Assembly: GCF_001411555.2 (NCBI RefSeq)
Contig: NC_049901.1
Span: 27,050,372-27,114,371, forward strand
Origin: Juglans regia
Lineage: Eukaryota > Streptophyta > Magnoliopsida > Fagales > Juglandaceae
DNA: 64,000 bases
Reading direction: 5' to 3'
Below are positions 4,001 through 46,305 of this stretch, piece by piece. Made by a program: the position numbers and the translations under genes. Under the pieces are notes generated by a model. It did no database searches and was not told the origin of the DNA. It saw only the letters and a list, made by a program, of their open reading frames with translations. The first letter of the stretch is position 1; each line of letters starts with the position of its first letter.

Positions 4001-4300
4001 CCCGAGCCTTGACCTAGGTGCTAACGTTCAACTTAGGCCATATTATGCACCTAGGCCTTAATCTGGGTCTTGTGTCCAGCCCGATCCAGCTTAAAACCCA
4101 AGATCTGGGTTCTAACCTAGGCCCTACCTTGTGGGATGGAAATTAAAAGAAGAAGGTTTTTTTTTTTTGCTAATCCCTATGAAGATTTCTAACCTGGGTG
4201 AAAGGGTTTGCATGCACTTATCTGTCTTCCCTCATATCTGAGGGGATGCAAACCGATCTCTGCCATTAATGAATAATCATTCTTTGCCACTATTAACTGA
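1068..4300 (-). repeat. 3' LTR of the Tat-like gypsy, split by a nested solo LTR
   Basis: Segments 1068-1239 and 3668-about 3870 match 12479-12650 and 12651-about 12850 in order, so together they are one LTR copy interrupted by the 1240-3667 insertion. The inner boundary next to the internal region could not be placed exactly; a pyrimidine-rich tract at 4468-4502 may be the complement of the polypurine tract. On the minus strand a TATAAATAA-type box lies in the matching part of the right copy (about 12668-12680). Confidence 0.7.
1240..3667 (-). mobile_element. Nested solo LTR, about 2.4 kb, gypsy type
   Basis: The insertion is defined by comparing the two LTRs of the surrounding gypsy. The uninterrupted copy reads GATTACCCAT at about 12646, while here GATTACT is followed by TGTGGCGCCC..., and homology resumes after ...CTCACA at CTACCCACC. 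The ends are TG...CA. The flanking 5-mers TTACT and CTACC each differ by one transition from the expected TTACC, as a mutated 5-bp duplication would. No gag or pol is visible. The minus strand has two TATAAAT motifs near 2840-2880, which suit an LTR promoter. The GC-rich ORFs between 2843 and 3459 are not convincing genes. Confidence 0.65.
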
Positions 4301-4568
4301 AGTTGTCCCCTGGCGGGAACCTCAACGTTGCTCGGGATTGGTCTGTTTCATGCACACGTGTGGTGGTTAAGCGTCGTTCTGTTTCTCTGTGGTGGACGTA
4401 TCCCTTCGTACTTCGTGCCTTCATTTTAGACACCTAACTGTTCCATTGCATTTGTTTTTATTCATTTCTTCCCCTCATTTCCTCTTCTATTTTCTTCTTG
4501 TCATTTTTGTTTCACCCTCCTTCATTTTTCTGAAAAAAAATACTCTAAACTTTCCGTATACTTTCACC

Positions 4569-23075: not shown

Positions 23076-26000
23076 ATGGTGAAGTCTTCTGGGTTCGGGC
23101 TTAGTGAGTAGGTATTGGTGTGCTGAGATTGGACCACTTTGGTGGATTATTGCTTAATTTGAGTTTTGGTACTTGCTGACTACTGTAGTAGGTGAAGTTT
23201 ATAGCCTTATCTTCGTTTTTTTTTTTTTTTTGGGGTGTTGACGTGACTTTATATGAATGATTGGTTTTATGGTAACTGTTACTGCAGTAATTGAATCATA
23301 AGTTTGTGACGCGTTTGAAAACGTAATGGTGTGATTGGCCCCCTATGAAAGTTATTGGTATCCGTAACCAATTTCCAGGGGTTTAGGTGTTGAATTGGTG
23401 AACAATCACAATGCTCCGGATTTTTCTGTTCACCTTGATGAGATAAAAAGGGAAAAATGATGCTTGATCCGAGTTCCAGTAGGCTTTGAAACTCTTGGTT
23501 CTTCATGATCATGTTCAATATCCGTAAGATGATTGATGATACATAATTGGTCACTATAAAATATGTTTCGATGACTAATTGATAGAGAGTTACTTGGCCA
23601 CACGTGTGCTTTTTCACTACTCTTACCTCAATGCAATTTCTTGTACCATTTTGAAGAATTTGTGCATGAATTTAACTTCAACAAAGTTGAACATTAATTG
23701 ATTGCAAGTATCATACATTTCTTTCCTCCATATCAATTGCTGCATATTTACTAAAATCAATTGTTACATATTCATTTCTTCATGTATCTGAGAATGAGTT
23801 GATTGTTTTATAATAGCTTAACCTCCAGTTTTCTTTCACTCGGTGTCGTTAGAAATTATCTAGGTGGAGAAACCTCCAAAGTACTCCATGTTGGGTCATT
23901 CGGAAGGTGCCTAATCTTTCTTCAGCTCATGAAAACTAGTGTCATACCCATTGCTTCATTATCAAGTCTTTTTTAGGTCAATTCAACATTACATCAGTTA
24001 ATGTTCTTGAAGAAGATGGGACAACTGCTTGTGGAATCCCACTTGGAATTAGTGCATTTCATTCTGTACAATTTTATGGAGGGAAACTATTCTTCTTACT
24101 TTCATTCATTGATGTACGACAACATATATACTACATACACTTGACGATTATACCCTCACAAGTTACACTTATTACAACTATGTCATCTAACACTCCCCCT
24201 CAAGCTGGAGCATATATATCATATAAACCCAGTTTGAAACAAATAAGTTTCAACCGACTCCAACACAAAGACTTAGGACAGGTTTGGGGGGTGAGATGAG
24301 AATTTTGTGTTTTGTTTTAGTGTTTAAAATATTATATTTTAGTATTATTATTGTATTGGGATTTGAAAAAGTTGAATTGAGATTTGAAAAAATTGAATTG
24401 TTTATTATATTTTGTATGGAGATTTGAAAAATATGTAATGATGAAATGAGATGAGATGAGAATTTTGTGTCTCATCCCACCCCCCAAACCTGCCCTTAGT
24501 AAACATATTTGCGAGTTGATCGGCAGACTTCACAAAAGGTGTAGAAATGTCATCACTTAGTATCTTATCTCGAATGAAGTGACAATCAATCTTTATATGT
24601 TTAGTCCTCTCATGAAACATAGGATTAGAGGCAATATGCACTGCGGCTTGATTATCACAAAATAACTGGAGAGGGATTGGAGTTGGAAACCCAATCTCTT
24701 TAAGGAAGTGTTGCAATCATGTCAGCTCACTAGTAGTGTGAGCCATTGCCCTGTATTCAACTTCTGCGCTAGACCGAGCTACTATTGCTTGTTTCTTACT
24801 TTTCCATGTAACCAAGTTACTTCCCACAAAGGTACAATATTCAGTAGTAGATCTTTTATCTGAAAGAGATCTTGCCCAATCAGCATCTGAAAAGGCTTCA
24901 ACCTTAAGATGTCCATTTGATCGATACAGTAATCCAAGGCCAGGGGTTCACTTAAGATAACGAAGAATATGAATTACAACATCCCATTATGAGACCCTAG
25001 GCGTTTGTAAAAATTGACTTAGTACACTCATTGAATAAGAGATGTCCGGTCTAATGATAGTGAGATAATTCAATTTCCCAACAAGTCTTTGATACCTACC
25101 TGGGTCTCCAAACAACTCCCATTCCTCTTTCAAGAATTTACGATTTGGGTCCATAGGGGTGTCAATAGGTCGTGCACCCAACATTCCGGTTTCTTCCAGA
25201 AGGTCAAGTACATATTTCCTCTAAGAAAGGTTGATACCCTCTTTAGATCTACTGATTTCAATTTCAAGGAAATATCTATGCTTGCCTAAGTCTTTTGTTT
25301 GAAATTGATCATGTAAACACTGTTTCAGTCTAGCAATTCCAGCTGAGTCACTCCCAGTAATTACCAACTAGGTTTAAGTATGTTTGAGTGTAACTTGGAT
25401 AAAAGTCTCCTCGTAATTAATGCCATATGTTTGAGTGTAACCCTTAGCAACCAAGCGGGCTTTCAAACATTCCACCGAACCATCAGGATGAAATTTGATT
25501 GTATATATCCATTTACAGCCAACAAATTGCTTACCAGGTGGTAGTGGAACAAGATCCCATGTCCCATTATGGTGAAGGGCATCCATTTCATTTTTCATAG
25601 CTGTCCTCCATCCCAGATCAGATAAAGCATCCTGAAATGTCTTAAGAATAGAAAATTTTGGAAGTTGAGAAGTAAAACATGAGAATGAAGGAGATAATGC
25701 ATGATATGATACAAATTGACTAATCGGATGTTGAGTAACACAAGATCGAGTACCTTTGTAGAGAGCTATAGGTGGAGAGTCTGAAATACTGGGTAACCTA
25801 GGATCTGGTATCAGAGATCACGGTTGTCGGATGGTGGTAAGTGGTGGACAGTGGTTCATGCCAAAATCGAGCTCACTGTGGTTTGAACTCGTTGGAGTGT
25901 TTTCTGGCATCGTATCTAACTTTTGTCGCTAGATCTAAGCCCACCAGTGTTTGCAGCTGCCGGATTCGAGTTTGCTGACGTCCCCATAGGTGTTTGTTTG

Positions 26001-29000
26001 AAGTGCCTTCCCCTCTGTCATCGGCGGCCCCATAGGTGTTTGAAGTGTTTCCGGCGAGTTTCCAGTGTCTTCTTCGGTATTGGACACCAGGGGTGAGTTC
26101 CCCGTCATCGTCTGTTCATATTGGTGTGTTCCCCGTCGTCAGCAGCCGCCAGAAGTGCCGCCTGTCGATGTCAAGCAGTGAAGAAAAGTAGTGTTTGTTT
26201 GCGGGGATAACCAATCCCATCCTCAAATGCGGATAACCCCATCCTGGAGTAAAATCCTGTCCCTAATCTGGAATAACGCCTGTTTGGTAACGAGGATAAG
26301 GTAATTCCCATACCTCTCATTCTCGTTTCGGATAACCTAATCCAGTTTTGGGTTTAAGTTGAAATCGGTTTTGGACGATATGTGATACAAACCGGTACCG
26401 GCCAATACAAGCTCGATTTTATCCGATACATGCCGAAACATAACCGATACCGACCGGTTCCTAGCCGATATGGTCCGATTCTGGCCGAAACAGTCCAATT
26501 CAGAACCAATATAGTCCGATACAGTGTATTTCTGACTGAAAAAGACTGAAATATTATTATTCGGGTACTTGAGCTAAGATTCTACATTTTCAGAGTGTGT
26601 TTCTTGGATTCTCAAGTTGAATTGTGGTTTTTCTCATATATTGTGTGGAGTTTCAATCTCTAAGTTCAGTTGTGATATTTTTTCTGCATCAATGACAATT
26701 AAATTCGAGTTACAGTTATATGATGCAGTTGCCTCATATGTTGCTCCTGGTGGGAGTGGAGGCCGAGGTGGTAGAGGCTCGTGGGGGACGTGATGCCAAA
26801 GGTTATCGCACTCGAGGTCAAGAATCTCGTAAGTGCACCCATTGTGGTCGCATTAACCACTTGGTGAACTATTGTTGGGTTGCACATGGGTTTCATCTTT
26901 CACAACTACTCTTACCCGATCAGGTACAACGTCCACATGTCTTGCCTCATCCACTCAAGCTCCATGGATCATTGATTCAGGAGCTAATGAACATCTGACT
27001 GGTTTGTCCCTCTGTCTTATCTAAGTTGGATACTGTGACATCTTCAAAAAGTGTTACTCTTGCTAATGGTTCTCTTGCTAAAGTTACAGGCATTGGATCC
27101 ACTAAGCTTACTTACTCTATATCCTTGTCATCTATTCTATATACTCCTAGTTGTCCCTTTAGGTTGTTGTCCATTAGTAAGATTACTCAAAGTCTTCAAT
27201 GTTCAGTGACACTTTATCCATCTTCATGTGTCTTTCAGGATCTCAAGACGGGAAACTAGATTGGTACTGGGTATGAAGCTGGTGGTCTGTATTATCTTGA
27301 TGTTAAACAGTCACCCACTCGAGCTCTTACATCCTCCTTATCATTTGCTTATGAATGGCACTGTCGTATTGGTCACCCCTCTTTGTCTCTTTTAAAGCAT
27401 CAGGTCAGGAATCTAGGAAATGTGTCTCCCTTTCCTTGTGAAGCATTTCAAATTAGTAAACATCATCATGTGTCTTTTGCACCTCTGGTTGATAAACGAG
27501 CATCAAGTCCTTTTGAATTGGTTCGCTTTGATACCATGCACAATTTTATGGAGGGAAACTATTCTTCTTACTTTCATTCATTGATGTACAACAACATATA
27601 TACTATGTACACTTGACGATTATACCCTCACAAGTTACACTTATTATAGCCATGTCATCTAACACATTCATCAAATGATGTGGGCTTGTTTTCTAGCTCC
27701 TTGCTTGTTCTTCCACATGAAATATGTATGTCTAAGCTCATGTTTAGCGATATTGCAGATATCAACGGCTTATCACATATTTGAGGACTTATTTTTGTCA
27801 ATATGCAGTGAGTTTTATGGATTTTGAACATGGTGGTCAATCTGTTGATGGTTACTTGCCTAATTTAAATAAACTTCACCAAGTTAATGAGCCTATGAAT
27901 CCACTTGAAGATGTTGAAGCAAATGCAATAGGAAGGATGCTTCCTGACGATGAAGACGAGCTTTTTGCTGGCATAATGGATGATTTTGACCTAAGTGGTC
28001 TGCCTATTCAGCTGGAAGATTTGGAAGATGACCTTTTCAGCAGTGGAGGGAGCATGGAATTAGATTTTGAGGCCCAAGAAGGCCTTAGCATTGGTATCTC
28101 AAAATTAAGCATTTCTGATGGTATCACTTCAAATGGAATTAGTCACTATGCAGTTCCAAATGGTGTGGGAACAGTGGCTGGGGAACATCCCTATGGGGAG
28201 CACCCATCAAGGACATTGTTTGTGAGGAATATCAATATCAATGTTGAGGACTCTGAATTAAGAGCTCTTTTTGAGGTAATTTATCTTATAGTCGGCATGT
28301 TTTATTAAAGTTGTGACGGCCTATTTTCAACTATATTAAAATTTTCAGTGCCTATTTTCATCCTGCCTTGCTTATTTTGGGCAAGATCTTGGCATACATT
28401 ATGCTCTTATCAGAATTTTTCCAAACCCCACACTTGTGGTCTTCTGTGTATTTTGACATACTGCATTAAGAATTGTATAGCTGGAAAAGTATGATAAGAT
28501 TTTTTATTTACTTTCTCTAGATTACCAAGTTCCATATTATGTTCTACGGTTGGATTGTGTATCCAAGGTTTACTTTCCAGGAATTTCCAAAGGACCTACC
28601 TTGATGAGGTTCCACGCTATACAAAAAAATGTTCCACATATAATGGTAAGGAAGCCTGATCGTGCTTGCTACTGTCTGATAGAGAGAATATTTTCACTCC
28701 CCTGTTTCTTTTTTCCTCTATTTTCTTTCTCGGGGTGTCTCTTTTGTACTAACCTCCTGTACTAGCGTGGATCTCCTTCTGGCATTTTTCTAATGCATCT
28801 TTGCTTACAGAAATGCCATTTGCTGGTCTTTAAATCTCAACGAAACTAAGATTTTCAACTAGTATGTGCTGTTGGTCACCTCTTCTAATAAAAATATGCA
28901 TAACTCTACTTTTACATACTTGTTTTGGAGAGAATTGAGCCTGTGCCCTGTGTACTTGACTATGCCTACTTTCTATCATCATCAAATTTACCGTTGAAAA

Positions 29001-32000
29001 AAAATCTCAAGCCAAGGTTGAATGATATTGCCGTGAAAACGCTAGAAAAGTTTGGGAAAATCTTGGAAACTAAAGAAAAACTGGAAATAATTGGGAAATT
29101 TCATGAGTTTCTTGAGTGATGGTGGAGTGAGTTTGAAATTTTTTATTTTTTGAAATTTTGATTCGTTTTGTGATTTAGATTTCAATTTTAGGATTTTTTA
29201 AAATTATTATGATCCAATGGCTTGAAATAATTGATTCAGTTTTCAGATTGAGTTATATATTATGCTTAATGAGTTATGATAAAAAAAGACAAGTTAGTTA
29301 ACATGGTTAAGTGAATCTCCTTGAATCTAAATCAATGGATCAATTGTGTTTAAGATGAAGTGCAATTCCAACGGTTATAAATGCGACCACATCTTGAGGT
29401 GAGCAAAATTTTTGGCAGTTATCTAATCTCTCACTTTTGGTCTACTAAGAGAGTGATGTCGCAAGAGGAGAGAAAATTAATTTTTAAACCTCTCAATTTT
29501 CCTATAGATAGAGGGCCTCTCCTATTCAATTTCTCAGACCACTCAGTGGAGTTTCATTTTCCTTAGAAGAGTGAGTTAAGTGTTGCTTAGAGAGAGCTAC
29601 TAGAGAGTGACCATTCAACTTTCCAGCAATTAATGATACCTGCTTGGATCTTCAAAGAGCGTACGGTTAGATCCGTAGTAGTATTAATAGGCTGAACACC
29701 CAATAAACCAGTTTCTTCCAATAAGTCAAGTACATTCTTCATCTGAGATAGACTAATACCTTTACACCTACCAACTTCAATCCCAAGAAAGTATCTGTGT
29801 TTTTCTAAATCTTCAGTGTGAAACCTATCCTTGAAAAACTTTTTCAACCTGCCAATGGGATCGGTCACGTCCAGTAATTACAATATTGTACACAAACCAC
29901 CAACAAGGTATAACTTGCATCGGTGTGTAGGATGTAGGCAGAATATTAAATTGTTAGTCTGACATCTAAAAGATCAAAATCCAATACATCATAAGAAAAC
30001 TTCCCTAACCAGTCTTGGGGATTGCTTCAAGGCATATAGTGCCTTATTTAACTTGCACACAGTACCCTGATACTGCCTTTGAGCAACAAATTCAGATGGT
30101 TACTCCATGTAAACTTCCTCAAGTATGTCATCAGGTAGAAAGGCATTTTTAACATTCGATTGAATAGTGGCCAATCAAGATTAGCTGCAAGGAATATTCA
30201 ATACTTGAATGGAAGAGATTTTGGCAATGGGGTGGAGTGTAGAGTCAAGCTTTGAACATTGAACCTCTACTATGTATAATGTTAAATCACCACTGATTTG
30301 AAAAGCTTAACCTAATGGGAGAAGGTAAATTTAATTATTTAAATTATATCCTAACACTAGTAAACTGGAGTGGTTTGTTGTTAAGAATATATTGGAGTTT
30401 TATTTATAACATAGTTTACAATCTTTTAGACTATTTATCACTTTTCCCTTGGCTTCTTCTATCTGTAATATTTTGACAATACTTTGTTTTGCATAGACTC
30501 ATATAAACTTATTTTTTAAAGCTATTAGCTTTTTGGTTGGACTTATGATCCAACATACAATATGATGTATTGTTCTTGCTTAAAAACTTCTTGGGACATG
30601 TTCCTGCTATGACATAATGCGTGATGAAAGGAATGACTACTCTTGAGTAAAAGGAAAAAATACGCTGAAATTTCTAAGGAAGCTAATCCTTTAACCTCAG
30701 TGAGCTTTATATAATTAATCACAAAATGGGTATCACGATGTTAACTTAGTGGTGCCAACATCCTTGGGCTTTGGTCTAGATGTGTAATCTACTACACCCT
30801 CAATTAGACTTAGCTCTAGTAGTAGTTAATGATTCTGTTGGGCACTGTTGATATATTCATATATAGTTGTCAACAGTTTTACATTGTGTCATCTATAACT
30901 TATTGATAATGAAACTGCTTTTCGTGTATTTTTGTTGGCAGCAATATGGGGATATCAGGACTTTATACACTGCGTGCAAGCACAGAGGCTTTGTGATGAT
31001 ATCTTACTATGATATCCGAGATGCTCGTACTGCTATGCGTGCATTACAGAATAAGCCCCTGAGGCGAAGAAAACTTGACATTCATTTTTCAATTCCAAAG
31101 GTTGGAAACAGGATGCTTGTTTTAATGATTCAGTTGGAGACTTTTGATATGTGATTCTATCAATTTTTATAACATGCACCTTTATTTCTGCACTATAATC
31201 CAGGATAACCCATCAGAAAAGGATATCAACCAAGGAACTCTTGTTGTATTCAATTTGGATCCATCAGTATCAAATGATGACCTTCGCCAAATATTTGGGG
31301 TGTATGGGGAGGTCAAAGAGGTGCTACTTCTTGGACATATATCTTCTATATGTTTGATTCTTTAATGTTCATGAAATCAGCTTTGTATGTATACATGGCA
31401 TGCCATTTAGTTCTTTAAGTTATAATTTCCTTGGAATGAAATGCAGATCAGGGAAACACCGCACAAGAGACATCATAAGTTCATAGAATTCTATGATGTT
31501 AGAGCTGCAGAGGCAGCTCTTAGAGCATTAAATAGGAGTGACATTGCTGGGAAACGCATAAAGCTTGAACCTAGCCGTCCTGGTGGAGCACGCCGAAGGT
31601 AATTTTTATGTTACCGTTTCGTATCATTAGTGTTGCTGTTATTACAATTTGAGCTTATTCATCCTTGTTGGCATGAATTCTTGGTCCTTTTCTCTCTTAG
31701 AATAAGATTGGAATGTAAAGCTCTATTGTCTCCCTTTCCCAATCCCATCTACCACCCCAGCCAATTCCCAGCAGGTGCATGTAATTAGATTTGCATGAAT
31801 AAACGTAATGGGAAGCATTTTGGATCTCATGACAGAACAAAATGGATTTTTTCATCCCAATGCTTCCTAGAGCAAAAAGACCATTTGATAGTGAATTCAA
31901 ACACAATGGGTTACAGTTTGGCATGTAGTTCTCCTCAAATGTGTAAAGATGTCAAGGTTAGACTGCTTGGCCCAAGAATTGGATCCTTTTATGTAACAAC

Positions 32001-35000
32001 CAAAGAAACCCCAGGTCACATCTAGGTTGATACTCTAAAAAGAATAGTCATGGTTCAATTTGAGTTACTTGGAAACAGTATAAGAGACAAGAACTTCCCC
32101 TTCCAAGTATGTGGGATACCATCCACCACATTCTTATATTCAATTTATTGTATTTACTGCCTCCCCACTTAAATACCTGACATTCTCGATGGGCCATGCC
32201 ATTATAGGCGGCACGGCTCAAGTTACACTCTTTTTGTTGGATTTGTTTCTAATACCATTTGTAACGACTTAAAACTGCCCAAATCACATTTGGGCCTATA
32301 CTCCAAAAGATTAGTTGATGTTACGATTGCAGCTCCTTGGGACTCAATATCAAGGGCAAGAACTTCCCCCTTCTAGCAATGTGAGATTCAATACACGACT
32401 TTCTAATACTCGGTCCCGGGTATTACATTATCGAGTACAGCTACCCTCTGATGTTTTTTTCAACTGATAACTAATCAAATCCGTTCAGCCCACATGATTC
32501 AACTACAACAGCTATTGACTAGGATGTGCATCAAACAAGCTTGGTGGCTTGAACTATATGAATAAATATCATCAAGGAGTCGCTGTAGTGGGTTTCAAAC
32601 CCTGGTTCAGCAGCTCCTGGTATCATGGCTTGAGCGACTGGACGTTCGTAACATTTTTCCACCGTTTTGAGCTTGACTTATTAGAAATAACAACTAAAAT
32701 ATTTGTTTTTTGGGGGACATGAAACCAAGTTTGAAAGGCCTATAATACCGTAATACAACCAACATAGCTCGTGTACCTTGATGCTGATGTTACTGTAGAT
32801 CATGTATTTGTACTTTGCTCAACTTTAGGCATGGTAATGTTGCTTTTAATATGAAGGAAACCAGCCTGTCCACAATATAGACAGGCACTTTTATAATGTA
32901 GTATTGAGGACAAAATACTTATGTGCTGCATTTGAACTTCCTTTGGGGGTGGGTCTGGAGAAGAGACGAAATCTCACTTGTAATACACTAGTTTGAGAGT
33001 TGGAGGTGAAGACAAGCTTATATGGTGGACCTCTTGGAGATATCTAGTGATCTTCCCCAGTAGAATGTAAGATTTATCAGAGCAACTCATATGTAACACC
33101 CCATCCCCCTAGGGTTTTAAAAGCTAGAGAAACTGAGTGCTACTAAACTTAAATGTTTTTCCTTAGCACCAGATATAAAAGATTCCATTATCAAAGTTAT
33201 AAAACCAAAAGTACTTTATTGGAAGAAAACCTCCCTAACAAGGTTCACAGTAGCACTTATTGAAAAGGAGTCTAAAATTATGTGTTACAATAATTAGTTG
33301 TGGAAATAAAGCAAATAACAAAACCCAAAATCGTCAAGCCTTAGTCTCGTCCCCCTTGGCCATATCTTGTCCTGCAGCATCTTCATGAATATCATCACCT
33401 AGGACAAGCGCACACAAAAACAAAAATGAGTTGGAATACGTAATAAGAACTACATCATATAATAAACATAACAATAGTCTAGGTTTTTAGTCAAGCATTA
33501 ACAGTCAATCATCATCATCATAATACAATACATAACAATTAACCTCATAGAGACATACATTTTTTTTATTTTCATATCCTTAATGGCCATTACACGCTGT
33601 TACCCCGTGTGCTAGGGTTAGCGACCCTTGCTGTCTTGACTCTATCCGGGGGCTAGCGGGTAAGAACCTAGCCCTCCTCAGGAATGGCTGCCAGTCACGC
33701 ATTCCGACATTACAACCCAACCCTTAACCTCATGGTACCGTCTTCACTATCATGGCTAGTTCATTTATTTCCTCAAAAGTCAAATATGCAATCATTCCTT
33801 TCATTTGCTTTCTTTCCATTTAACCTTTCCTTACCTTATCTTTCATTCATTTAAAATATATAGTCGTACTATATACATATAAGCTATTGATGGTCATACA
33901 TTTACATGTCACATGCATCACATTAATAATAAGGGTTCATGTAACAGGGGCTGCCAAGAACAATCTATACATATATAGTTTTGAACATGTGCATATCTAT
34001 ACCGTAATGAAAATGACATTTCTCATTTACATAAAATGGTGGGAAAGGGTATGATCATAGTCACTTACCTAAAGTCTTATGCAAAGTAAGCTTAAATGCA
34101 CGTGTCTCAAAGCATCAAAAGGTACCTATAATAATTCATACAATCAAATAAACATTTTCTTACGCATAAATAAAACATGAATATAAAACATGCAACTATG
34201 CATAAAGGCTTCTTGTGATGTCTAACATCCTCTGAACTCAACCCTAATTACTGGTACAACTCTAAACCTACGTTCCTTATGACTCGCATTCTTCTTTTAT
34301 TCATCGCATAAAATCATTACATGACTTCCAAAGTATCACCAATCATTCTTGTGTAGCCTAAAATCGTCCACATGAAATAATCGACTCCAAAACACATTCC
34401 CCTGTCATTTCCAACATATTGCCCGAAATACTATAAGTGGGTGAAACCCTTAACGAAGCATTGCCATTAAATCACACCCAACTTGTTTAACCCACAACTA
34501 ACCCATGCAAGACTTTGAAATCTCAAACTTCAACCTACACTCATGGACACATCAACTCAAAGTCAACCCGCGTTGCACCAACATAAAACGTAGACATACT
34601 CCTACACAGTCACATACCACCTTCCTTCCACGTATGCTTTCACATACCTGAAGTCCCACTAATCCTCTCATACATTTGTAGGTATACCAACATCATGCAT
34701 ACACTGAGATGTAACTGCCCAGCCCTTACACGAACACTCTCCCCCTCGGTTCCATGTAGATGCACTCAAAACTCACATATACACACTCATATCACACGGT
34801 CACGGCCCTTACATCACTTGGTTACACTTAAACATATGTAAGAGAGGGAGGGAGGGAGAGAGTTTTTTACCTAGAGAGAGGCCTGAGCTGCCGCAAGGGG
34901 CGTGGCCAAGAGTTGCAATTTGTTGTATGTTTGCCTTGTTTCGGTTATCAAGAACAGAGAGTTACAAATTGGTGGTAATGGTACATGGGTGATACCGAGG

Positions 35001-38000
35001 GTTGAACCGAGGGAAGAGGGTGAGGAAACAATGGTTCACCAACCTGTTTTCATACCAGGTTGGGAGGTGGAAGGTGGTGTGCTACTGTGGGCTGCGATGG
35101 CTTGACCTATGTATCAATTCTTGGCTTGAAGCACGTTGTCTGTGCGCTGGGAATGGCTGGGGCTCTTCCTATTGGTCCAGATTAGTGGGGGCTGGTGCAA
35201 GGCGGCTTTGTGGTAGTGCTGTGAAGGATCAAGGTCATGCACAATGGTGTCATGGTGGTGGATGAAAGCTATGCACAAAACAGGGACTGGTGTTTAACAT
35301 GTATGCTGTGCAATGGTTATGGATTACCTACCAGTGGATGGCAGCGCACAGAGGAGTTAGGCAGTTGTGGTAGTGGCACAATGGAACAAACCACGAGAGT
35401 GGTGGTGGTGTAGGGTACAAGGAACCGACGTGAACCCAAGAGCCGATCATGATGTGTGTGCGTGTAGTGTGATAATTGTGCTTACCTGTTGGTGGTTGGG
35501 GGCTGTGCATGGAGGAGCTGGTGGATGCTGGAGGCCAACCTACTGGAGAGGAGCTATGGAGGATGTGGCCAAAAAACCCTAGGGTTGGAGTGAGTTTATG
35601 TGAAGGGGCCTATATATGTATATGGGTCCACTTTATACATGAAGCAAAGCGGATCGGATCTATAATTGGGTCATGCATATGGGTCCCGGTTTGGGCTCCC
35701 ATGCGGCTTCCTGCTCTGAGTGGTTGTTTCATCGCAGTCTCACCAATGAGATGGTTTTGTTACGAAGTACCTGCTCCTTCTGCTCCAACATCTCTATTGG
35801 TGATTCTTCATAAGTGATGTTGGTAGGATACAACTCCAACTCTCTCTAGTATCTCAAATGGCCTAATATACCTTAGGCTTAGCTTGCCCTTTTTCCTGAA
35901 CCACGTAATACCCTTCATCGGGTCAACCCTGAGGAACACCTTGTCCCCCTAACATAAAATAATACTAATAATAATAATATCAATAATTCTCTAAAATATA
36001 TCGGGGTGCTACATCATGACTGCAAGGTTGATGCCTCAACTAAATTCATTAATCTACTTTAATCCACTAGTTTGAGAGTAGGAGAAGAAGACATGCTTAT
36101 TTGGGCCCTTCTCAATAATCAAATGTCCAGCTAATTTGAAGTCTTTAATCTTCAAGCTAAAAGTCCTTTTCTTTGGAAGAGAATATGGCAGACTAAGGTC
36201 CTTTCAAGAGCTGTGTTTTTTTCCTGGACGGCCTTTCTTGGAAAGATTCTCAACATGGACAATTTGAGGAAAAGACACATTGTTGTGGTCGAGTGGTGCT
36301 GCATGTGCAAGAGGAGTGTGAAATCTATGGATTGGTTTTTACTCCCTTGTGAGATGACTATTGCTTTGTGAAGCAACTTTTTTAGTCTGATTGGTTTGAC
36401 TTGGTTCATGTCCAGCATAGTGGTGAACCTTGCTGACCTTGGAGAGGGTTAGTCGCAACTTAGTTGCAATAGTGTGAAACATGGCTTCTACTTGCCTCAT
36501 ATGGTCTATTTGGAGGGAAAGAAATAATAGAATTTTTTAGTACCTTAAGATTTTCTTTTTCAATACTCTCTCCATTAGACAGCTTTCTATTGACTTTAAT
36601 GGGCTCAATTTACATGATTTCCTTTATCTTTTTCTTCTAGATAGGCCTCTCTCTTGTATACATCCTATATATTTGGAGTGCGCCTTTTGTGCTTTCTCAA
36701 GAAATTTTATTAATTATCAAAAACAGTTTCAGATAGTAATTAATTTAATTGTTAATGAGCTAAGGGGAAGGGACAAGCTCCACATTTATGAAGCCCAAAA
36801 TAGTATCTTGGAATGTCCGAGGGTTTAATGTAGCAAATAAGCACCTTTGGGTGAAAAACCTGCTTCGTGAGTGGAAGACGAACATTGTGTGTTTACAGGA
36901 AACTGAACGGAAATTTATCACAAGGAGGATTGTTTGGAGTTTATGGAGCTGTACATATGTGGATTGAGCCTATCTTGCTTCTGATGGGGCATCGGGAGGT
37001 CTTTTGGTGATGTGGGATAGAAGGGTGGTGGAGAAATTGGAGGCGTTATTGGGGAGTATACAGTGGCATGTTCTTTTAAGAGTGTTGATGATAATTTTGT
37101 ATGGGCCTTCGTTGGCATTTATGGGCCAAATCTGGACAGCAGTAGAAGATTACTGTGGGAAGAACTTGCTAGAATCCATAGCTGGTGAATATCCCCCTCA
37201 TGGGAAGTGCTTATACGTGGTCTAGATTGGACAAATTCTTAGTCTCATCGGAGTGGGAAACACACTATCCGGAACTTTGCCAAAAGAGGTTGCCTCGCCC
37301 TTGTTCGGATTATTTTCCACTATTATTAGATTGTGGGGGCATTCAATGAAGGTGTCGGTAGTTTAAATTCGAAAATATGTGGCTAAAACCGAAGGTTTTG
37401 TGCAAAGGGTACCGCAATGGTGGTCTTCATATCAGATCCATGGTATCCCAAGTTTTATTTTCGCAAGTAAACTGAAAGCTCTAAAGAATGATTTAAAGTT
37501 GTGGAACACTTAATCATTTGGTGATGTAGGTGACCGTAAAATTTCATGTTGGAGGAGCTTCAGGAGGTAGAGAGGGCACAAGAGGGTTGGGCTCTCTCCC
37601 TGGAGGAAGTTTCTCGGAAGGTTGAATTAGTGGCAGAGCTAGATAGGGTTATGTTATTGGAGGAGATCTCTTGGCACCAAAAATAAGAGCATTGTGGTTG
37701 AAAGGAGACTGAAGTACAAAGTTCTTCCATAGAGTGGCCAACTCTCATAGGAGAACTAACAACATTGAGATGTTGAAAATAGATGGCAGGGATGACTGTG
37801 TAGAGGCTCTGGTGATTAGGGAGCATGTTACTGACTTTTTTGAACAATTGCATTGTGAGCAGGTGGGATGGCAGCCAAAACTCGATGGACTAGCTTTTGA
37901 GTCCCTTGATACACAACAAGCCTTGTGGTAGGAGAGGCCCTTTGAGGAGGTGGAGGTTCACAGCGTGGTAAGGAGAATGGTCAAAGATAAAGCATCTGAT

Positions 38001-40182
38001 CCAAATGGTTTTTCCATGGGATTTTTTCAAACATGTTGGGATGTGGTGAGGGAGGATTTAACAAGAGTGTTCCATGAATTCTTTTCGGTTGGGAAGTTTG
38101 AGAAAAGCCTCAACGCCACATTTATCGCACTTATTCCCAAGAAGCTTGGGGCATTGGAGGTGAAGGATTACCGTCTCATTAGCCTCGTGAATGGGGTGTA
38201 TAAAATCATATCGAAGGTGCTTGCAAATTGCCTAGGGGGAGGCCTTGAGGAGAATCATTACAAAACCCCAAAATGCATTTGTGAAAGGTAGACAAATTCT
38301 GGACTCAGTTTTCATTGCCAATGAATGTCTAGACAGTAGACTAAGGGTTGGTTTGGATAGTGAGATGAGATAGTTTTAGATGAAGGTTGAAAGTTGAATA
38401 AAATATTGTTAGAATATTATTTTTTAATATTATTATTGTTTTGGGATTTGAAAAAGTTGAATTGTTTATTATATTTTGTGTGGAAATTTAAGAAAATTGT
38501 AATGATGAGATGAGATAAGATAAGATGAAACACTATCTGAATCCAAACGAGCCCTAAAATTTGAACAGTTGAGGATTCTATGCAAATTAGATATGAAGAA
38601 GGCGTATGATCATGTTAATTGGGAGTTCCTACTTTATTTGCTTAGGAGGTGTGGGATTGGGGAGAAATGGTGCTCGTGGATTAGATGGTGTATCTCAACG
38701 GCGAAGTTTTTAGTCTTGGTAAATGGCAGCCCAAATGGTTTCTTTAACAGCCCTCGAGGTCTAAGACAAGAAGATCCTTCATCCCCACTTCTATTTGTCA
38801 TTGTTATGGAGGCGCTTAGCAAAATGTTTTTAGCCTTGGTGAACAGTGGATTTATTGATGGCTTCTCAGTTGGTAATCCTACTAGGGGCTCCGTTATTAT
38901 ATCTCACTCATTGTTTGCAGATGATACATTGATCTTTTGTATCACAGAACAAAACCAAATTCAAGCATGAAAGGCGTTATTACTCTGTTTTGAAGCGGTA
39001 TCAGGGTTGAAAGTGAATTATCATAAATCAGAGTTGGTACTAGTGGGTAATGTTCGCAATATCCTAGGAGTGGTAATATGTGACATAATCCTTTAACCCA
39101 ACACGAACACGACATGATCAAAGTGGGTTTGGGTTGGTCTTAACGGGTTTGGGTCAAAACGGGTTGACTCATTATGACCCGTTAAGAAAGTTGAATTTAC
39201 ATTTATACCCTTAGACCTAAGATTGTAATATTAATATTTTACAATGTGTGTTAATCATATTTGGGATTGTAACTTTAATATTATTACAATTTGTGTTTAT
39301 CATATTTGTGTAATTGTGTTTATCATATTTGGTACTGTTGGGGTTTTAATCTCAGTATTTTTATTGTTTGGATTGTAATTTTAGACTTGTAGTTAGTTTA
39401 TTTTTATTTTTTATAGATATTGTTTATATTTTAATATTTATATAAAATTAATCAGGTCAAACGGGTCAAACAGGTTGAAACGGGTCAGGTCGGGTCGTGC
39501 CAATCTATTTTGTATTCAATAATGGGTCAAAACGGGTCGTGTCATGTCAATCCGTTATCTTAATAGGTCGTCTTAGGATTTGAGATTTTGACACGAAATC
39601 CTTAATGTGTCATGTTCGGATTGACCCATTAAGTATAATGTACATTTCTTGACACGACACGAACACGATTTGATACCCCTACAATATCTGGCAATTGGCT
39701 AATACCCTTGGATGTAAGGTTTCTTCTCTCCCCATGAATTATCTTGGTCTTCCCTTGGGGGCAACTGCAAGGTCTATATCGTTTTGGGATACAGTGATTG
39801 AGAAGATTGAATGCAGACTGACAGGTTGGAAAAGATTGTATTTTTCGAAAGGTGGCAGGATCACTCTAATCAAAAGTATTCTTTCTAATATGCCAAATTA
39901 CTTTTTATCTGTATTCCCAATCTCAACAAGTGTGGCGAAATGCATCGAGAAACTTTATCGTGATTTTCTGTGGAGTGGGTTAGGAGATGAATTCAAGTTT
40001 CACCTAGTCAAGTGGGATAAAGTTTGCTCTCCAGTCTCCTCCGGTTGGTTGGGTATCAGAAAGTTGAAGATTTTCAATCGAGTCTTATTTGGAAAGTGGA
40101 TGTGGAGATACATCATGGAACCAGAGGCCTTATGGAACTCGGTGATTGATCTTAAATATGGAGGTATGTCGCCCCGGTGGGG

Positions 40183-40214
<32 letters not shown>

Positions 40215-43200
40215 AGTGCACTAGAGAAGTTCATGGGCCTTATGGAGTTGGAATTTGGAAACATATTAGAGGAGGGTGGGGGATTTTTATTAGGCACACT
40301 TGGCTGTTGTTGAGTAATGGGTCTAGAAGAAAATTTTGGACTGACCGGTGGTGTGGAGATCATGCTTTAAATGATTCTTTCCCTTCAATTTTTAGAAGTG
40401 CACGTGAGAAAGATACATCAGTGGCTAATTGTATGGAGTTCTCTAGGGATCTATTCCAATGGAATATGAATTTCACCAAGGCGGCCCAAGATTGGGAAGT
40501 TGGCGGCATTGAGGAGTTTTTTGGTCTTCTATACACCATGATACCGAGAGCAGAAGACGCTGACACGATATGGTGGATACCCATCGGTAGAGGTATATTC
40601 TCAGTTCGCTCTTTTTATAAGACTCTCACACAACCACAGAACACTAAGTTCCCATGGAGAAGGATTCGGCGAAATAAGGCGCCTCCTAAAGTGGCATTTT
40701 TTGTATGGGTAGCAACATTGGGTAAGATCTTGATTTTGGACAACTTACGGAAACGAAGGGTGATCATAGTAGAGTGGTGTTGCATGTGTAGGAAAAATGG
40801 TGAAACTGTGGATCACTTGCTGTTGCATTGTGAGGTCGCTAGAACGTTATGGAATGAAGTGTTCAACAGGTTAGATCTTGCTTGGGTGATTTCTGCCACA
40901 GTGATTGAACTCATGGCCAGTTGGACCAATTTACAAGGTCTCCCACAAATCTCAGCGGTGTGGAAAATGGTTCTGATATGTATTCTGTGGTGCCTGTGGA
41001 AGTAGCGAAATGACCGGACGTTTGAAGACATGGAGTGTTCATTGGAAGAACTTAGATTATTTTTTGTCAGCACTCTTTTTCTATGGGCCACATCTGTGGA
41101 TTTTCGTGGTCTCAATTTTCATGATTTTCTAGTTTCTATTTCCTCTTCCTAAATAGGTGTTACCTTTTGTATACCATCTTGTGTACTTCTATTCATATCA
41201 ATATAATCATTTACATAAAAATAAAAAAATAAAAAATTGTTTATGACATCACAATCTGACCACGAAAATTGGACCCTTGATCGTCTCTTCTAGGTTATCA
41301 AACAAATTGGCAGAATGATATGAGGTGCGATGTTTTAATTAAAAACTTTCTAAAATTAGCCAATTTGGAAGAGAACTTCCTAAGTATAGTTACTTCTGGC
41401 TGCTATCAGGAATACTTAAAAATCAAACCGTAGAAATAAGTAACTGAAGAAGATGGTATAATTACACTTCTACCCATTGCAGTCTAAAAAGTAATATACT
41501 TATGCACTTCTTTGTTGGAAGCATGGCTGCAGACTGTTGTATAATTTAGTTTGATCTACAAAGCTGAAATGAGGACTCACGAATAAAGGAAAATAGGAAG
41601 TAAAGTTGTTACACTTAAGTTATATCATGGGCAACTTGTATGAAAAACTTCCTCTGCTATTGTAATTCTTGGCTCCTGTTTCTTGAACGTATATTGTGAG
41701 CTATCAAGTCTCTCTGCAAATTTGTTTCCCTTGATAGTTGATACTTTTTCTGATGGGTCTTTTAATGTCTCTCTGCTCATTTTGGCATTATGTGAATTGG
41801 GCTCATAGATTGTTTTTCTAACCCCGTTTGCATTTTAATTGATGCCTTGTCACAAATTATTATTAATTGATTAAGCTGTGAAGAAATTAACCTAGTTGTA
41901 CCTTCTGATCTGTAGCTTGATGCAGCAACTAAGTCAAGAGCTAGAGCTAGATGAAGCTCGAGGCTTCCAATATCATGTGGGTTCACCTGTCACCAACTCT
42001 CCTCCAGGTATTTCTATCTCTAAACACATTGTATTTATTAGATAACATATTCTAAAGCTTATTCTCATTAATTTCTTGTATTGATAGTCTTGTTGGAAAC
42101 CCATTTTTGGTTATAAGTTGAAATTACTTAAGACTTTCATTACAGGTAACTGGCTGCAATTTGGCAGTGCAGGTGATCATAATCCTCTGCATGCTTTTAG
42201 CAAGTCCCCTGGTCGAGGAAATCTAAGCCCTTTAAGTAGCAACCAACTGCCTGGGTTAGCTTCAATCCTTCCGCGTCATCTATCTAACTCTGCAAAATTT
42301 GCACCAATTGGTAAGGACACCGGAAGGGTGAACCATATATTTCCTAACACTGGGCCAACGCAAGGAACAGCCTATCAGCATTCCCGTTCCTTTTCTGAGC
42401 AGAAATTTATTGCTAGTCCAGGAACCCTATCTCCATGTTCCGACATAAATCTGAATTCACCTGGCATTGGAACTTTATCTGGTCCTCAGTTTCTCTGGGG
42501 AAGTCCTGGCCCTTACTCTGAGCATATCAATTCTTCTGCGTGGCAAACATCATCTGTGGGGCACCCATTTGCATCCAGTGGACACGATCAGGGTTTTCCA
42601 TATACAGGTGAAAAAGATTCTTTTCTTGGCTTACATAACCACCATCATGTTGGATCTGCTCCATCTGTTGTTCCTCTTCATAGGCAGTTTGGCTTCGTCC
42701 CAGAGTCACCAGACACATCCTTCATGAATCCAGTTGCATTTTCGAACATGGATTCAAGTCGCAACAATGTTATGAACATTGGTGCTCGTGTAGGTCTTTC
42801 AGGAAAAGTAACTGAAAATGGTTCGCCCAGTTTCAGAATCATGTCCCTGCCGAGGCATGCTCCCATGTTACTTGGCAATGGTTCTTATCCAGGACCCGGA
42901 GCAACCGCCTATGAGGGACTAGGTGAATGTGGCCCAAGTCGGCGAGTTGAGAATAGTTGGAATCAGATAGATAGCCACAAGCAGTACCAGCTTGATTTGG
43001 ATAGAATTATCAGCGGGGAAGATTTCAGGACTACCTTGATGATTAAAAACATCCCTAACAAGTATGAAAAACATAGGATTAAAATTTTCAAATAATTGAG
43101 TTTTTGTGTTTAAATACAGTGGTCAAAATTCCTTGATGGCTTCACCTGATTTCTCCTACCAGGTACACTTCGAAGATGCTGCTGGCGGCTATTGATGAAA

Positions 43201-46200
43201 ATCACCAGGGTACTTATGATTTTATTTACTTGCCAATTGATTTTAAGGTAATACTACTACACTAATTTATGATGCATTCTTCTTAAAATCTCTCATGTTG
43301 AATTGCCACTGAAGTTTGAAGTTGACAATTGTCTGCTGCAGAATAAGTGCAATGTGGGTTATGCCTTCATCAATATGGTCTCTCCTTCCCACATTATCCC
43401 CTTCTATGAGGTTCAATTTTGATTATTTTCCTAGTCTCAAGTAGTAGCAATACACAGTTAATTTTAGATTTTCTTTTATGTCAATGTGGCAAAAGTTTGT
43501 GTGCTGTGGGCATGTTATATGGGTTCGGGTAAAAAATGAGTTGCATTGGCATGGCTTCCAGAGTTCCTTGTCATAAAATAACGTGGTATAAGTAGTATTT
43601 TGCTTGTATATTCATAAAAGGGTGATTCTGCCGTTCAACTGTTTTACAGTTGAAGGGAAAATTCTTTGCATTTATATATGACCGACTATTCACATAATTC
43701 ACAAAATTAATTTAGCTGGATCAAAATAATGAAATCCTTTATATATGCTAAAACCTATTCCATGAAATTTTGCAGGCATTTCATGGAAAGAAGTGGGAGA
43801 AGTTTAATAGTGAAAAAGTTTCTTCACTGGCATATGCGCGAATCCAGGGCAAGCCTGCCCTTGTGACACACTTTCAGAATTCAAGTCTAATGACTGAAGA
43901 TAAACGATGCTGGCCAATTCTCTTCTACTCAGGGGGACAAGAGATAAGTGATCAGGTAATAATTGTCTGAGTTGTAGAACTTTTCTTTTCATGAGCATGA
44001 CCGAAGTACCGGAAATTTTCTGCTGAATGACTTGGAATGTTAATGGCCAAAATGCAAGTTAAGCTTTGCTTTCTTAAAAGATTGATTTGGTGGGGATGCT
44101 TTATACAAATGTGCTTGTCTGGCTTTGTATAAGAAAGATGGGATTCAAATGGAGGGAATGAACTAGCTGATTGGTTTTGAAGATTTTGGTAGTCCTGTGG
44201 AAGGTGCTGGAATGGGAGCTTGCAGGTCAGGAGCTGTGTGCTCTTTTGGTACCTTTGGATCTTTCAGCAGACCACGGTCCCTGGTTATAACCTGTGGGTT
44301 TTTTCACTCTGGTGACCAGAATAGCCTTCTGGCAACCTTGGTAGCCAATTGCCTCCTCTATTTTCCAATAGCTAATACTCGGAGTTGGAGCTGTGCGGCC
44401 AGTGGACTTGTGAGAAGTTTGGGATTAGGCCAGGAGTCCTCTTATTTCTGCTGGGAGTTCTATACTATGGTTTCTGTGATTTGGACTAAGGGTAGTGATA
44501 GGGTTACTACCTATTTACTGCTTATAGTGTATTTATTTTTTTATCATTTTATTTTAAGTATTTTTTTAACATTCTTAATCATTAAGAAAAAAATTAAAAA
44601 AATATATAATTTTACTAATAGTCACTTCCTTAATTATTAAGTAAAATTAAAAATTAAAAAAAAAATCAAATACAAAAAGAACAGTAAATAGGTAGTAGGA
44701 GGGTAGTAACCCTATCATTTTCCTTGGACTAATGTAGGGAAGAGCGCTATTGTCAGGGTGAGATACAACAGCTGGTGAGGTAGGGGGCCTGTCTGATAAG
44801 ACTACAGAGAAAATTTATTAAGCGTCACATCATAGAAAAAGGGTGCACAGTTCTCAATTCTGTTATGTGACACCGCAGGTCAAGAAACTAAATAACTAAA
44901 TATGAGACTAACAGACATGCAATAATTTCGAGGGATTAAGTTTAGATTTTGTGGATATTTTTAGGGACCGAATATACACTTTAGCAATGAAAAAGTAATT
45001 ATAGCTTCATGCATATTTGTTTTGTTTTTTCTCTGTAATTGTTACATTGATGTCTACTGAGTATTCTTTTATGGTTTATTTACCGCATCTTATGTTTGAG
45101 CTTTGATGAAGTTGTATTTGGTCGCGGTTTTTTTTATTTTTTGTTTTTTTGGGTAAGTTAAGCATCTCACTTCATGCATAATCAGGCACTCAAGAGTACT
45201 TTTAACCATGAATTATTCTGAGGAACTATTCGATGCAAGATAAGCTAGACCCCAAAATTTAGATGGCACTAGGGATTTCTTTTGCTTTGCTTTATTTCTT
45301 TTTCTACCTCTTTCTTTAGGTATATGTCTAGGGTTTTAGGTTCTGACTCCATATAAAGGCTAGTGTTAACGGTTATTTTGTCATAACCTTGTTATTAAGT
45401 TTGTTTTAGAGTTATTTTGATAAAAGGCTAGTGTTCTTTGCCTCCTAGAACTACCACTCTTTGCAATAGAACCTCTAAACTGTCAACGTTGCCTCTTAGC
45501 CCCCCAATTTAAAACTTACAACGTAATTTACACCCTTCACTTAGATCTTGCCACTTCATCTATGTTTCCTCTATGTAAATGGTCGGATTTTACAAGGGTC
45601 AAATTTCAGCATATGTTTCAAATTGTGAGACTAATGGCTTTTGTGGTTTGAATATCATATTGCAAAAGCAATGGTATTTTTTCTGGAGGGAAGGAGAGAT
45701 GGGAAGAGTAAAGCATAGTCTTCCCTTTCCTTTCTATCGTTTTCACTGCTTTCGGTTTTTTTTTTTCACCACAGTTGGTCTCATACTGTCATGTTTAACA
45801 TTAAAAATGAAAGGAAAAAAGGATGCAAAAATGAAACATATATGCTTAGGATAATTTATGGAGAGGAGGAGAGGCAAATGTGTGCTAGAAAATTTAAATA
45901 TACAGGATTTTCCTTTGTTTTGGGTTGGGGAGCACAGCACAAGAGGGTGTCTGAGCTGATGGTTGAAGTAGCTAGTCCAAGGGTCAAGGCTGACTTCCAT
46001 TGTCCCATTGGCTTGTCTGATTCAAATTGATCTGAATAAAAAAATTATGAAGTTGCTAATAATACCGTTTTAGAGTTCCTAGACACAGGCAATTCTGTTC
46101 AAGATTGATCAGAAGGCAGCATTCCTTCAACTTGTCTTCTTGCAACCATATACTATTTTCTAACTGTTTCTGTCTCTTTATCCTCCAGGAACCTTTCCTT

Positions 46201-46305
46201 TCTAGAAACTTGAACATTTGTATCCGTCCACCAGATGGATCTTACTCACGGGATTCTTTGGAGAGCCCAAAGGGAAATGTGGAAAAGAAGCCAGAGAAAG
46301 ACTAA
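23076..46305 (+). CDS. ML5: MEI2-like RNA-binding protein (AML5/ML5 clade), exon 2 disrupted by a copia element
   Basis: Coding blocks: 23076-23103, 23977-24064 + 27670-27725 (one exon split by copia), 27809-28275, 30942-31100, 31204-31320, 31447-31598, 41916-42007, 42146-43061, 43163-43247, 43342-43410, 43776-43955 and 46189-46305 (TAA). All borders are GT/AG; phases agree and the sum is 2526 nt (841 codons plus stop), a usual length for the clade. RRM1 spans the 28.2/30.9-kb exons ([16 protein letters not shown]), RRM2 the 31.2/31.4-kb exons ([10 protein letters not shown]). The MEI2-type RRM3 spans 43.0-43.9 kb ([21 protein letters not shown]). In plants such proteins bind RNA and act in meiosis and growth. 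The first coding exon is inferred from GTGAGT and phase only. With the insertion, translation from the first ATG should end early; from ATG 27817 a 781-residue protein with all RRMs could still be made. Confidence 0.85.
23104..23976 (+). other. Intron 1 of the MEI2-like gene
   Basis: It begins GTGAGT after the inferred first coding exon and ends TTTTTTAG before GTCAATTC. A poly-T tract lies at about 23218-23231. No TE coding sequence is visible. Confidence 0.55.
24065..24192 (-). repeat. Copia 3' LTR (128 bp)
   Basis: It runs from TGTACAATTTTATGG to GTCATCTAACA and is a direct repeat of 27537-27664. It is followed by the polypurine-tract complement and preceded by the CATTC target duplication. 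Confidence 0.92.
24276..24495. mobile_element. Tourist-like MITE nested in the copia element
   Basis: 220 bp between TTA duplications (24273-24275 and 24496-24498). The terminal inverted repeat GGACAGGTTTGGGGGGTGAG pairs with GGGCAGGTTTGGGGGGTGGG on the other strand. The inside is AT-rich, with repeated 'gggatttgaaaaagttgaattg'. TTA/TAA duplication plus GGG(N)nGTTTGG ends are typical of PIF/Harbinger-type MITEs. It sits between RNase H and the LTR of the copia, so it is younger than the copia. Confidence 0.85.
24500..25800 (-). pseudogene. Copia reverse transcriptase/RNase H remnant, palm deleted
   Basis: On the minus strand, from right to left: pre-RT linker ([12 protein letters not shown] at about 25790-25750), RT N-terminus ([41 protein letters not shown], 25598-25374), and a gap where the catalytic YVDD palm should be. 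Then the RT C-terminus ([35 protein letters not shown], 25184-24987) and RNase H ([32 protein letters not shown], 24716-24500). Frame changes and stops separate the parts. Confidence 0.88.
25806..27536 (+). pseudogene. Inverted copia gag-protease-integrase block
   Basis: Plus-strand sequence inside a minus-strand copia. It starts with TGGTATCAGAGA (25806), the usual copia primer-binding sequence complementary to initiator tRNA-Met. Then come an untranslated leader-like part, a gag zinc knuckle [14 protein letters not shown] (26837-26880; CX2CX4HX4C), a protease start [13 protein letters not shown] (about 26956-26996) with the DSG catalytic motif, and a pre-integrase region ([27 protein letters not shown]). 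It stops at [10 protein letters not shown], where the integrase core should begin, and abuts the LTR at 27537. A low-complexity stretch at 26190-26560 within the leader seems to be a separate insertion. Confidence 0.8.
27537..27664 (-). repeat. Copia 5' LTR (128 bp)
   Basis: A direct repeat of 24065-24192, from TGCACAATTTTATGG to GTCATCTAACA. It directly joins the inverted block, whose minus-strand end reads TGGTATCAAAGCG, and the CATTC target duplication follows. Confidence 0.92.
28276..30941 (+). other. MEI2-like intron within RRM1, with TE fragments
   Basis: A 2.7-kb intron (GAG|GTAATT ... TTGGCAG|CAA) splitting RRM1. It contains the copia RT fragment at 29600-30180; the remaining sequence is AT-rich with nothing else recognisable. 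Confidence 0.75.
29600..30180 (-). pseudogene. Copia reverse transcriptase fragment in a MEI2-like intron
   Basis: The minus strand reads, with stops and frame changes, a [19 protein letters not shown] RT segment (about 30160-30100), [10 protein letters not shown] (about 30040-30010), then [20 protein letters not shown] and [20 protein letters not shown] (29868-29670). The YVDD motif is not readable. No LTRs lie nearby. It differs from the copia in exon 2, so it is a separate, older insertion or a fragment brought by rearrangement. Confidence 0.8.
31985..32450. repeat. Two diverged tandem copies, unknown origin
   Basis: The pattern '(g)taac(a/g)ac(t/c)...ggtc(a)cat(c/t)t...tagttgat...caagaacttccccttc..aagtatgtg' appears at about 31995-32115 and again, diverged, at 32260-32370. 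It may be part of an old transposon; I cannot name it. Confidence 0.4.
33091..36014 (-). mobile_element. Internally deleted chromodomain-type gypsy remnant
   Basis: The ends are TGTAACACCCC (33091) and, inverted, GGGGTGCTACA (36014), as TG...CA LTR ends would be. The flanks TCATA and TCATG may be a mutated 5-bp duplication. On the minus strand an integrase C-terminus and chromodomain-like tail are readable near the right end. The rest (33091-35640) is long, LTR-like and non-coding, with GC-rich parts at 34880-35600 and a TATATA-rich promoter-like stretch near 35610. Most of gag-pol is gone. The boundaries rest on the terminal motif and are moderately sure. Confidence 0.6.
35690..35947 (-). 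pseudogene. Gypsy integrase C-terminus and chromodomain-like tail
   Basis: The minus strand reads [17 protein letters not shown] and [20 protein letters not shown], the integrase C-terminal (GPY/F-like) region of chromodomain gypsy elements. After a deletion it reads [16 protein letters not shown], a stop, then [12 protein letters not shown], the characteristic (LRxKxIxLVKVxWxxxxxEEATWE) tail. Frame and stop damage make it a pseudogene. Confidence 0.8.
36030..36725 (+). mobile_element. 5'-truncated L1-type LINE remnant A
   Basis: A plus-strand 3' end of a plant LINE ORF2. The readable zinc-binding RVT C-terminal region contains [14 protein letters not shown] and EWCCMCKR (about 36225-36315), followed by a 3' untranslated part ending TTATTAATTATCAAAAACA, typical of plant LINE tails. 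It closely parallels 40720-40800 of LINE B, so the two are of one family. No RT motif remains. Confidence 0.75.
38345..38554. mobile_element. Tourist-like MITE nested in LINE B
   Basis: 210 bp between TAA duplications (38342-38344, 38555-38557). The ends are GGGTTGGTTTGGATAGTG and, inverted, GGGCTCGTTTGGATTCAG. It shares the inside 'gggatttgaaaaagttgaattg' and 'gtaatgatgagatgagat' with 24276-24495. It interrupts the LINE ORF2 and so is younger than the LINE. Confidence 0.88.
39065..39681. mobile_element. hAT-like non-autonomous element nested in LINE B
   Basis: 617 bp between CAATATCC (39057-39064) and CAATATCT (39682-39689), an 8-bp duplication with one change. The ends are TAGGAGTGGTA and, inverted, TAGGGGTATCA. 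The subterminal parts are rich in 'gggtcaaacgggt' and 'cacgacacgaacacga', as in a common plant hAT MITE type. It interrupts the LINE frame exactly at its duplication: the LINE reading continues with LANTLGCKV on the right. Confidence 0.85.
40179..40214. repeat. Poly-G tract (G6-A-G29)
   Basis: Six Gs, one A, then 29 uninterrupted Gs. It is the longest mononucleotide run noticed in the window. It keeps the LINE ORF2 frame open as polyglycine. Confidence 0.95.
43956..46188 (+). other. Last intron of the MEI2-like gene
   Basis: A 2.2-kb intron (CAG|GTAATAA ... CTCCAG|GAACC). It contains a short MITE-like inverted repeat (44496-44717); otherwise AT-rich sequence without recognisable coding parts. 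Confidence 0.8.
44496..44717. mobile_element. Short MITE-like inverted-repeat element
   Basis: 222 bp. The left end TGATAGGGTTACTACC...TATTTACTG pairs with the right end CAGTAAATAGGTAGTAGGAGGGTAGTAACCCTATCA, apart from an 11-bp extra block. The middle is T/A-rich. The wider flanks TTTGGACTAAGG and CTTGGACTAATG are similar to each other, but no clean target duplication is defined. Confidence 0.6.

Follow-up and report, generated by a model that had tools for sequence, protein, structure and literature searches.

We analyzed a 64,000-nucleotide stretch of the Juglans regia genome (NC_049901.1, positions 27,050,372 to 27,114,371; hereafter the window, with positions counted from its first letter), which carries a MEI2-like gene whose coding exon 2 is split by a Ty1/copia retrotransposon. 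The element is 3,600 bp long (24065-27664) and interrupts an exon of 144 nt. It is bounded by long terminal repeats (LTRs) of 128 bp each, which have TG...CA ends and differ at 7 of 128 positions, and by two copies of a target site duplication (TSD), CATTC (Table 1). With the element and one TSD copy removed, the two exon parts join into 144 nt (48 codons) with AG upstream, GT downstream, and a phase that fits the neighboring exons. Flanked by two phase-1 borders and made of whole codons, exon 2 is frame-neutral. An earlier reading of the window from its letters alone (the sequence-only reading) had placed a copia element within a MEI2-like coding exon, with exact flanks and the right phase after removal; LTR, TSD, and exon anatomy bear out both statements.

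Of 7,991 candidates in a protein search, 1,637 proved to be homologs, and 120 of these were listed. Exon 2 was sought in these by local alignment with chestnut, pecan, and Prunus probe peptides, a score of at least 100 counting as present (shuffled maximum, 38). The exon 2 peptide is at least partly present in 112 of the 120, including the three probes themselves and a homolog (P0068) that begins inside exon 2. It is absent from eight, among them the deposited J. regia hypothetical protein F2P56_002099 (P0002). Other deposited models that lack it are those of Hibiscus (P0084) and Arachis (P0107), which pass from an exon 1-like start directly to exon 3, and those of Sarracenia (P0096) and Persea (P0117), in which different starts lead into exon 3. 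In the walnut paralogs on C4 and C3, exon 2 is uninterrupted, 144 and 123 nt long, respectively, with borders of the same kind. Because exon 2 is present in most listed homologs and uninterrupted in these two paralogs, the insertion is genuine and exonic. Of two checks proposed in the sequence-only reading, the first comes out in its favor: orthologous proteins do contain exon 2. For the second, the same insert as an intron in relatives, the comparison covered the two paralogs of the same genome, and neither has the insert. A search with pecan residues 1-62 returned one of 15 candidates, pecan itself, and no exon-2-bearing Juglans cluster, although clusters at 90% hide members.

The restored gene has 12 exons and encodes 838 amino acids plus a stop codon, with no internal stop; exons 3-12 are open, with GT/AG borders throughout. 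An open frame of a multiple of three had been predicted correctly, at a length of 841 codons that differs from our model through small differences in borders. Among the 120 listed homologs, the closest is MEI2-like 2 isoform X4 of Carya illinoinensis (pecan), also 838 amino acids long, which is identical to the restored protein at 789 of 838 residues and aligns without gaps over all 838, straight across the insertion point. The MEI2-like assignment stands, and the earlier AML5-type label needs adjusting: the nearest named orthologs are MEI2-like 2, though some listed relatives are named MEI2-like 5. The window reads GTG (23864-23866) where relatives such as Castanea have the start ATG (MEQ...). 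The deposited pecan isoform likewise begins at the later ATG (MLGHSEG), so this shift of the start codon probably predates the walnut-pecan split. Pfam places RRM_1 domains and a C-terminal RRM_2 (three RRMs) in both F2P56_002099 and the homolog P0001, with the domains undamaged in F2P56_002099. The 10-kb intron 6 separately contains LINE-like remnants (long interspersed nuclear element) at 38524-41005, with RVT_1 and zf-RVT matches.

F2P56_002099 begins inside the element. Its first 16 codons and one further nucleotide are encoded at 27355-27403, in a frame other than that of the gag-pre-integrase match, and position 27403 is joined to 27809, where exon 3 begins. Starting at SFMDFEH in exon 3, the protein is identical to the window translation apart from one 9-residue difference, which fits an alternative exon 8 acceptor. 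The fates listed by the sequence-only reading (null, truncated protein, element spliced out) are thus incomplete, this route not being among them. By a home-made splice score, the GT donor at 27404 ranks in the top 1.3% of all 3,720 GTs that the window contains, and an AG upstream of the transposon-derived exon, at 27238, in the top 0.25% of its 3,594 AGs; the score, built on consensus weights, is crude, with 2 of the 11 donors of the gene model ranking only in the top 25% and 41%. Among the 120 representatives, only F2P56_002099 has a transposon-encoded start, and a search with its residues 1-70 returned seven proteins. The protein presumably stems from the walnut v2.0 annotation, for which excerpts of the published account (PMC7238675) name PASA/TransDecoder applied to RefSeq transcripts, other J. 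regia transcripts and proteins, and Iso-Seq. A real transcript with a transposon-derived first exon is plausible on this model, though not proven.

The element is a rearranged member of Ty1/copia rather than a plain copy. Paired LTRs with TG...CA ends, a 5-bp TSD, a primer-binding site (PBS), a polypurine tract (PPT), and copia-type domains are all present. The single-direction order of gag, protease, integrase, reverse transcriptase (RT), and RNase H is not: the half from gag to the start of integrase lies in reverse orientation, and no integrase core is present. The element is unlikely to be autonomous. Pfam matches above the cut-off are gag_pre-integrs, Pol_BBD, and one RVT_2 piece; a second RVT_2 piece falls below it, and five of nine element pieces have no match. 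The gag CCHC knuckle in the 5' half was recognized by eye, with no Pfam match, and the start of integrase by similarity to L036, a relative of normal order (2395-7049), with LTR, PBS, gag to integrase start, RT, and PPT in succession. On the minus strand, the PBS beside the 5' LTR reads TGGTATCAAAGC (27536-27525), where L036 has TGGTATCAGAGC, and a GAGGGGG tract forms the PPT beside the 3' LTR. We take the PBS to match a tRNA.

Both junctions of the inverted half were compared with other genomic copies. Junction 1 (25805-25807) is crossed by more than about 20 bases in none of the 40 other places scored, out of 145 first-look candidates; the match stops at query 294-327 in 37 of them and starts at query 307 in the other 3. 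Junction 2 (27525-27537) fuses three parts: the integrase start, a 12-nt complement of the PBS, and the LTR. This fusion is shared with one of 39 other places scored (231 candidates, 40 scored), the remaining 38 stopping at query 218-235. The sharing copy, L033 (4897-4922), is a second walnut copy with LTRs 99.2% alike and the TSD CTAAA, and it has no junction where the window copy has its other one. Integrase CTCTGATATATGG and the PBS complement CTCTGATACCA have the 8-nt match CTCTGATA in common. In a tree of 20 of 22 5'-half pieces (two were too short, and one place appears twice, as L014 and L036), the group with L033 does not include the window copy (local support, 0.93), whose 5' half is closer to normal copies, at 93.5% identity to L036 vs 86.3% to L033. 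Since junction 2 recurs in L033, in another tree group and without the other junction, these sequences suggest that plus-strand strong-stop DNA, through its PBS end, mis-primed at the 8-nt match in integrase, perhaps repeatedly; common descent of junction 2 in both copies, with recombination afterwards, is the alternative. The rearrangement is consistent with aberrant reverse transcription. Chromosomal inversion was set aside without a direct test, as PBS sequence marks each of the two breakpoints and another copy shares one of them.

The LTRs differ by a Kimura two-parameter distance (K2P) of 0.058 (95% interval of raw divergence, 2.2 to 10.9%), and all seven differences are transitions. At substitution rates of 1.3e-8 and 2.06e-9 per site per year, the insertion is about 2.2 and 14 million years old, respectively (0.9 to 27 with the interval). 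It is probably some millions of years old, and the LTR divergence speaks against a very recent event. The nested insertion at 24271-24500, absent from the relatives L033 and L036, is as expected if it came later than the element. The sequence-only reading had called the interrupted gene an allele, a status that neither this age nor the assembly bears out: when 27665-28290 was searched against the assembly, the only matches were the locus itself and two paralogs (75% and 70%), with no empty-site copy.

A recent insertion still segregating in walnut, with the reference tree representing one inserted haplotype and most trees having the empty site, would nevertheless account for the locus, and we consider it improbable. 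The published assembly was de-duplicated for heterozygous scaffold variants, according to excerpts of PMC7238675, and the second allele could be missing from it; LTR dating, which recombination between family members can mislead (PMC5668417, in part), might also make a new recombinant copy look old. Against it stand the K2P value, the further insertion nested in the element, and the finding of only the two diverged matches to the exon 3 region elsewhere in the assembly.

Our preferred interpretation, held with moderate confidence, is that a rearranged copia element inserted into exon 2 of walnut MEI2-like 2, probably millions of years ago, and that exon 2 now drops out of the mature message while exons 3-12 are kept in frame. 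Exon 3 could be reached by three routes: from a new exon that the element supplies, the route of F2P56_002099; by splicing exon 1 directly to exon 3; or by starting translation at ATG 27817. The exon 1-exon 3 join keeps the frame (MLGHSEVSFMDF...) because exon 2 consists of 48 whole codons between two phase-1 borders, and all three routes would preserve the frame of exons 3-12. The product would retain all three RRMs and lose the conserved 48-residue N-terminal segment. That the deposited protein begins with an element-encoded stretch suggests a gene altered at its N terminus rather than destroyed, and not a proven null. The insertion, the exon, its frame, the undamaged downstream exons, and the chimeric deposited model are observed directly, whereas the presence of these transcripts in the plant, a functional protein, and fixation of the insertion are inferred. 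It is a good deal less likely that the 16-residue start is itself a real translated N terminus fixed in walnut, in which a copia gag-pre-integrase fragment read out of its own frame replaces the conserved N-terminal segment and alters the control of the protein.

The gene might instead be null or decaying, with read-through transcripts that meet a stop codon in the element after 113 codons and are broken down, and with the deposited model an annotation artifact. Read-through from exons 1 and 2 does end after 113 amino acids, upstream of any RRM, but the intact exons 3-12 with their GT/AG borders, the existence of a deposited model spanning the locus, and the pattern of substitution make this outcome doubtful. 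With Castanea, Corylus, and Liquidambar as outgroups, 14 derived amino acid changes fall on the walnut branch vs 23 on that of pecan (12 unassigned), and the walnut branch thus shows no sequence decay of MEI2-like 2. Residues 1-54 hold no walnut-derived change, three pecan-derived changes, and four unassigned ones, a distribution that would also suit removal of the element as a new intron, with exon 2 still coding and with or without extra residues. Six of 48 GT/AG pairs around the element keep an open frame. The pair 24066/27649 adds only seven residues, and its AG exists in the right LTR alone, where two LTR differences create it (TTATTATAG); the left LTR (24177) lacks it. Among all GTs and AGs of the window, the candidate donors fall within the top 18% to 84% and the candidate acceptors within the top 24% and 16%; the donor of exon 1 is in the top 3.8% and the acceptor of exon 3 in the top 2.0%. 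The deposited model uses none of the candidate sites. Even allowing for the crudeness of the splice score noted above, we rate a new intron as slightly less probable than a null gene.

Several points weigh against the loss of exon 2 from a functioning gene. The lack of walnut-derived changes in residues 1-54 equally fits an exon 2 still in use or a younger insertion, and the exon-2-less models of other plants are annotations rather than tested isoforms. RefSeq transcripts can themselves be predictions, so the deposited transposon exon could be a modeling artifact. The LTR age is rough, coming from 128 bp with transitions only and with recombination between family members possible, and the interpretation as a whole is based on DNA, predicted splice sites, and deposited models.

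Table 1. Coordinates of the interrupted gene and of the inserted element in the window
Feature	Position	Strand	Remark
Exon 1, coding part	23888..23906	+	MLGHSE + 1 nt
Exon 2, 5' part	23977..24064	+	Borders like exon 2 (144 nt) of walnut paralog L034
TSD CATTC, left	24060..24064	+	
LTR (3' in element sense)	24065..24192	-	
Element 3' half	24193..25805	-	Purine-rich tract, RNase H-like region (by eye), RVT_2 RT fragments; middle of RT missing
Nested inverted-repeat insertion, like a miniature inverted-repeat transposable element	24271..24500	.	Absent in relatives L033 and L036
Element 5' half, inverted	25806..27533	+	PBS-like start, leader, gag, Pol_BBD, gag_pre-integrase, integrase start
Transposon-derived first coding exon of F2P56_002099	27355..27403	+	GT donor at 27404
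12-nt PBS copy fused to integrase start (junction 2)	27525..27536	-	
LTR (5' in element sense)	27537..27664	-	
TSD CATTC, right	27665..27669	+	
Exon 2, 3' part	27670..27725	+	
Exon 3	27809..28275	+	In-frame ATG at 27817
Exons 4-12, span	30942..46305	+	Open frames, GT/AG borders
Exons 4-6	30942-31100, 31204-31320, 31447-31598	+	
Exons 7-9	41916-42007, 42146-43061, 43163-43247	+	
Exons 10-12	43342-43410, 43776-43955, 46189-46305	+	

Elsewhere in the window, at 58365-60470, two extended open stretches that share a frame and are separated by 240 bases match BED zinc finger, hAT RNase-H-like, and hAT dimerization domains and are, judging by these matches, a hAT transposase gene. At 13342-14569, overlapping frames of 235 to 354 codons in all three plus-strand frames encode repetitive peptides that resemble one another, as a tandem repeat would produce.

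The locus offers a testable case in which a gene may survive an exonic retrotransposon because the exon hit is frame-neutral and is missing from some models of other plants. For users of the gene model, it matters that the first 16 residues of a public walnut protein are transposon sequence. The titles and abstract openings listed for literature on walnut MEI2-like genes, Juglans chimeric transposable element transcripts, and Juglans LTR-retrotransposon exon insertions do not report this insertion.

The walnut gene resembles other plant genes for MEI2-like (AML) RNA-binding proteins in its three RRMs, including the C-terminal RRM_2, and in its conserved N-terminal exons, and it differs from them in having neither an uninterrupted exon 2 nor the usual start ATG. 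The segment that would be lost is part of the N terminus of the protein. In Arabidopsis AML1, the N-terminal 219 residues bind Raptor in yeast, according to excerpts of PMC553980; if the N terminus governs TOR/Raptor binding as reported there, walnut may, by analogy, be a natural N-terminal variant. Abnormal template switching is known in plant LTR elements (Sabot and Schulman 2007; PMC1950507, in part). The complex elements treated in that study combine two parent sequences in one larger element, whereas the walnut copy is one element with its PBS-to-integrase half inverted and both junctions at PBS sequence. Chimeric transcripts of transposable elements and genes, and exonic copia insertions, are already known, and the walnut case is a clear new instance with well-defined limits at the DNA level. 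The nearest example that we found is RPP4-ATCOPIA4 of Arabidopsis, in which, as parts of PMC10241880 describe, a copia element lies within a coding exon of a gene that still works and that produces chimeric isoforms as well as isoforms with the original downstream reading frames preserved despite an insert of ~4.7 kb. Both loci have a copia element inside a coding exon; unlike RPP4, walnut MEI2-like 2 was hit in a 5' coding exon and is described here from DNA and a deposited model.

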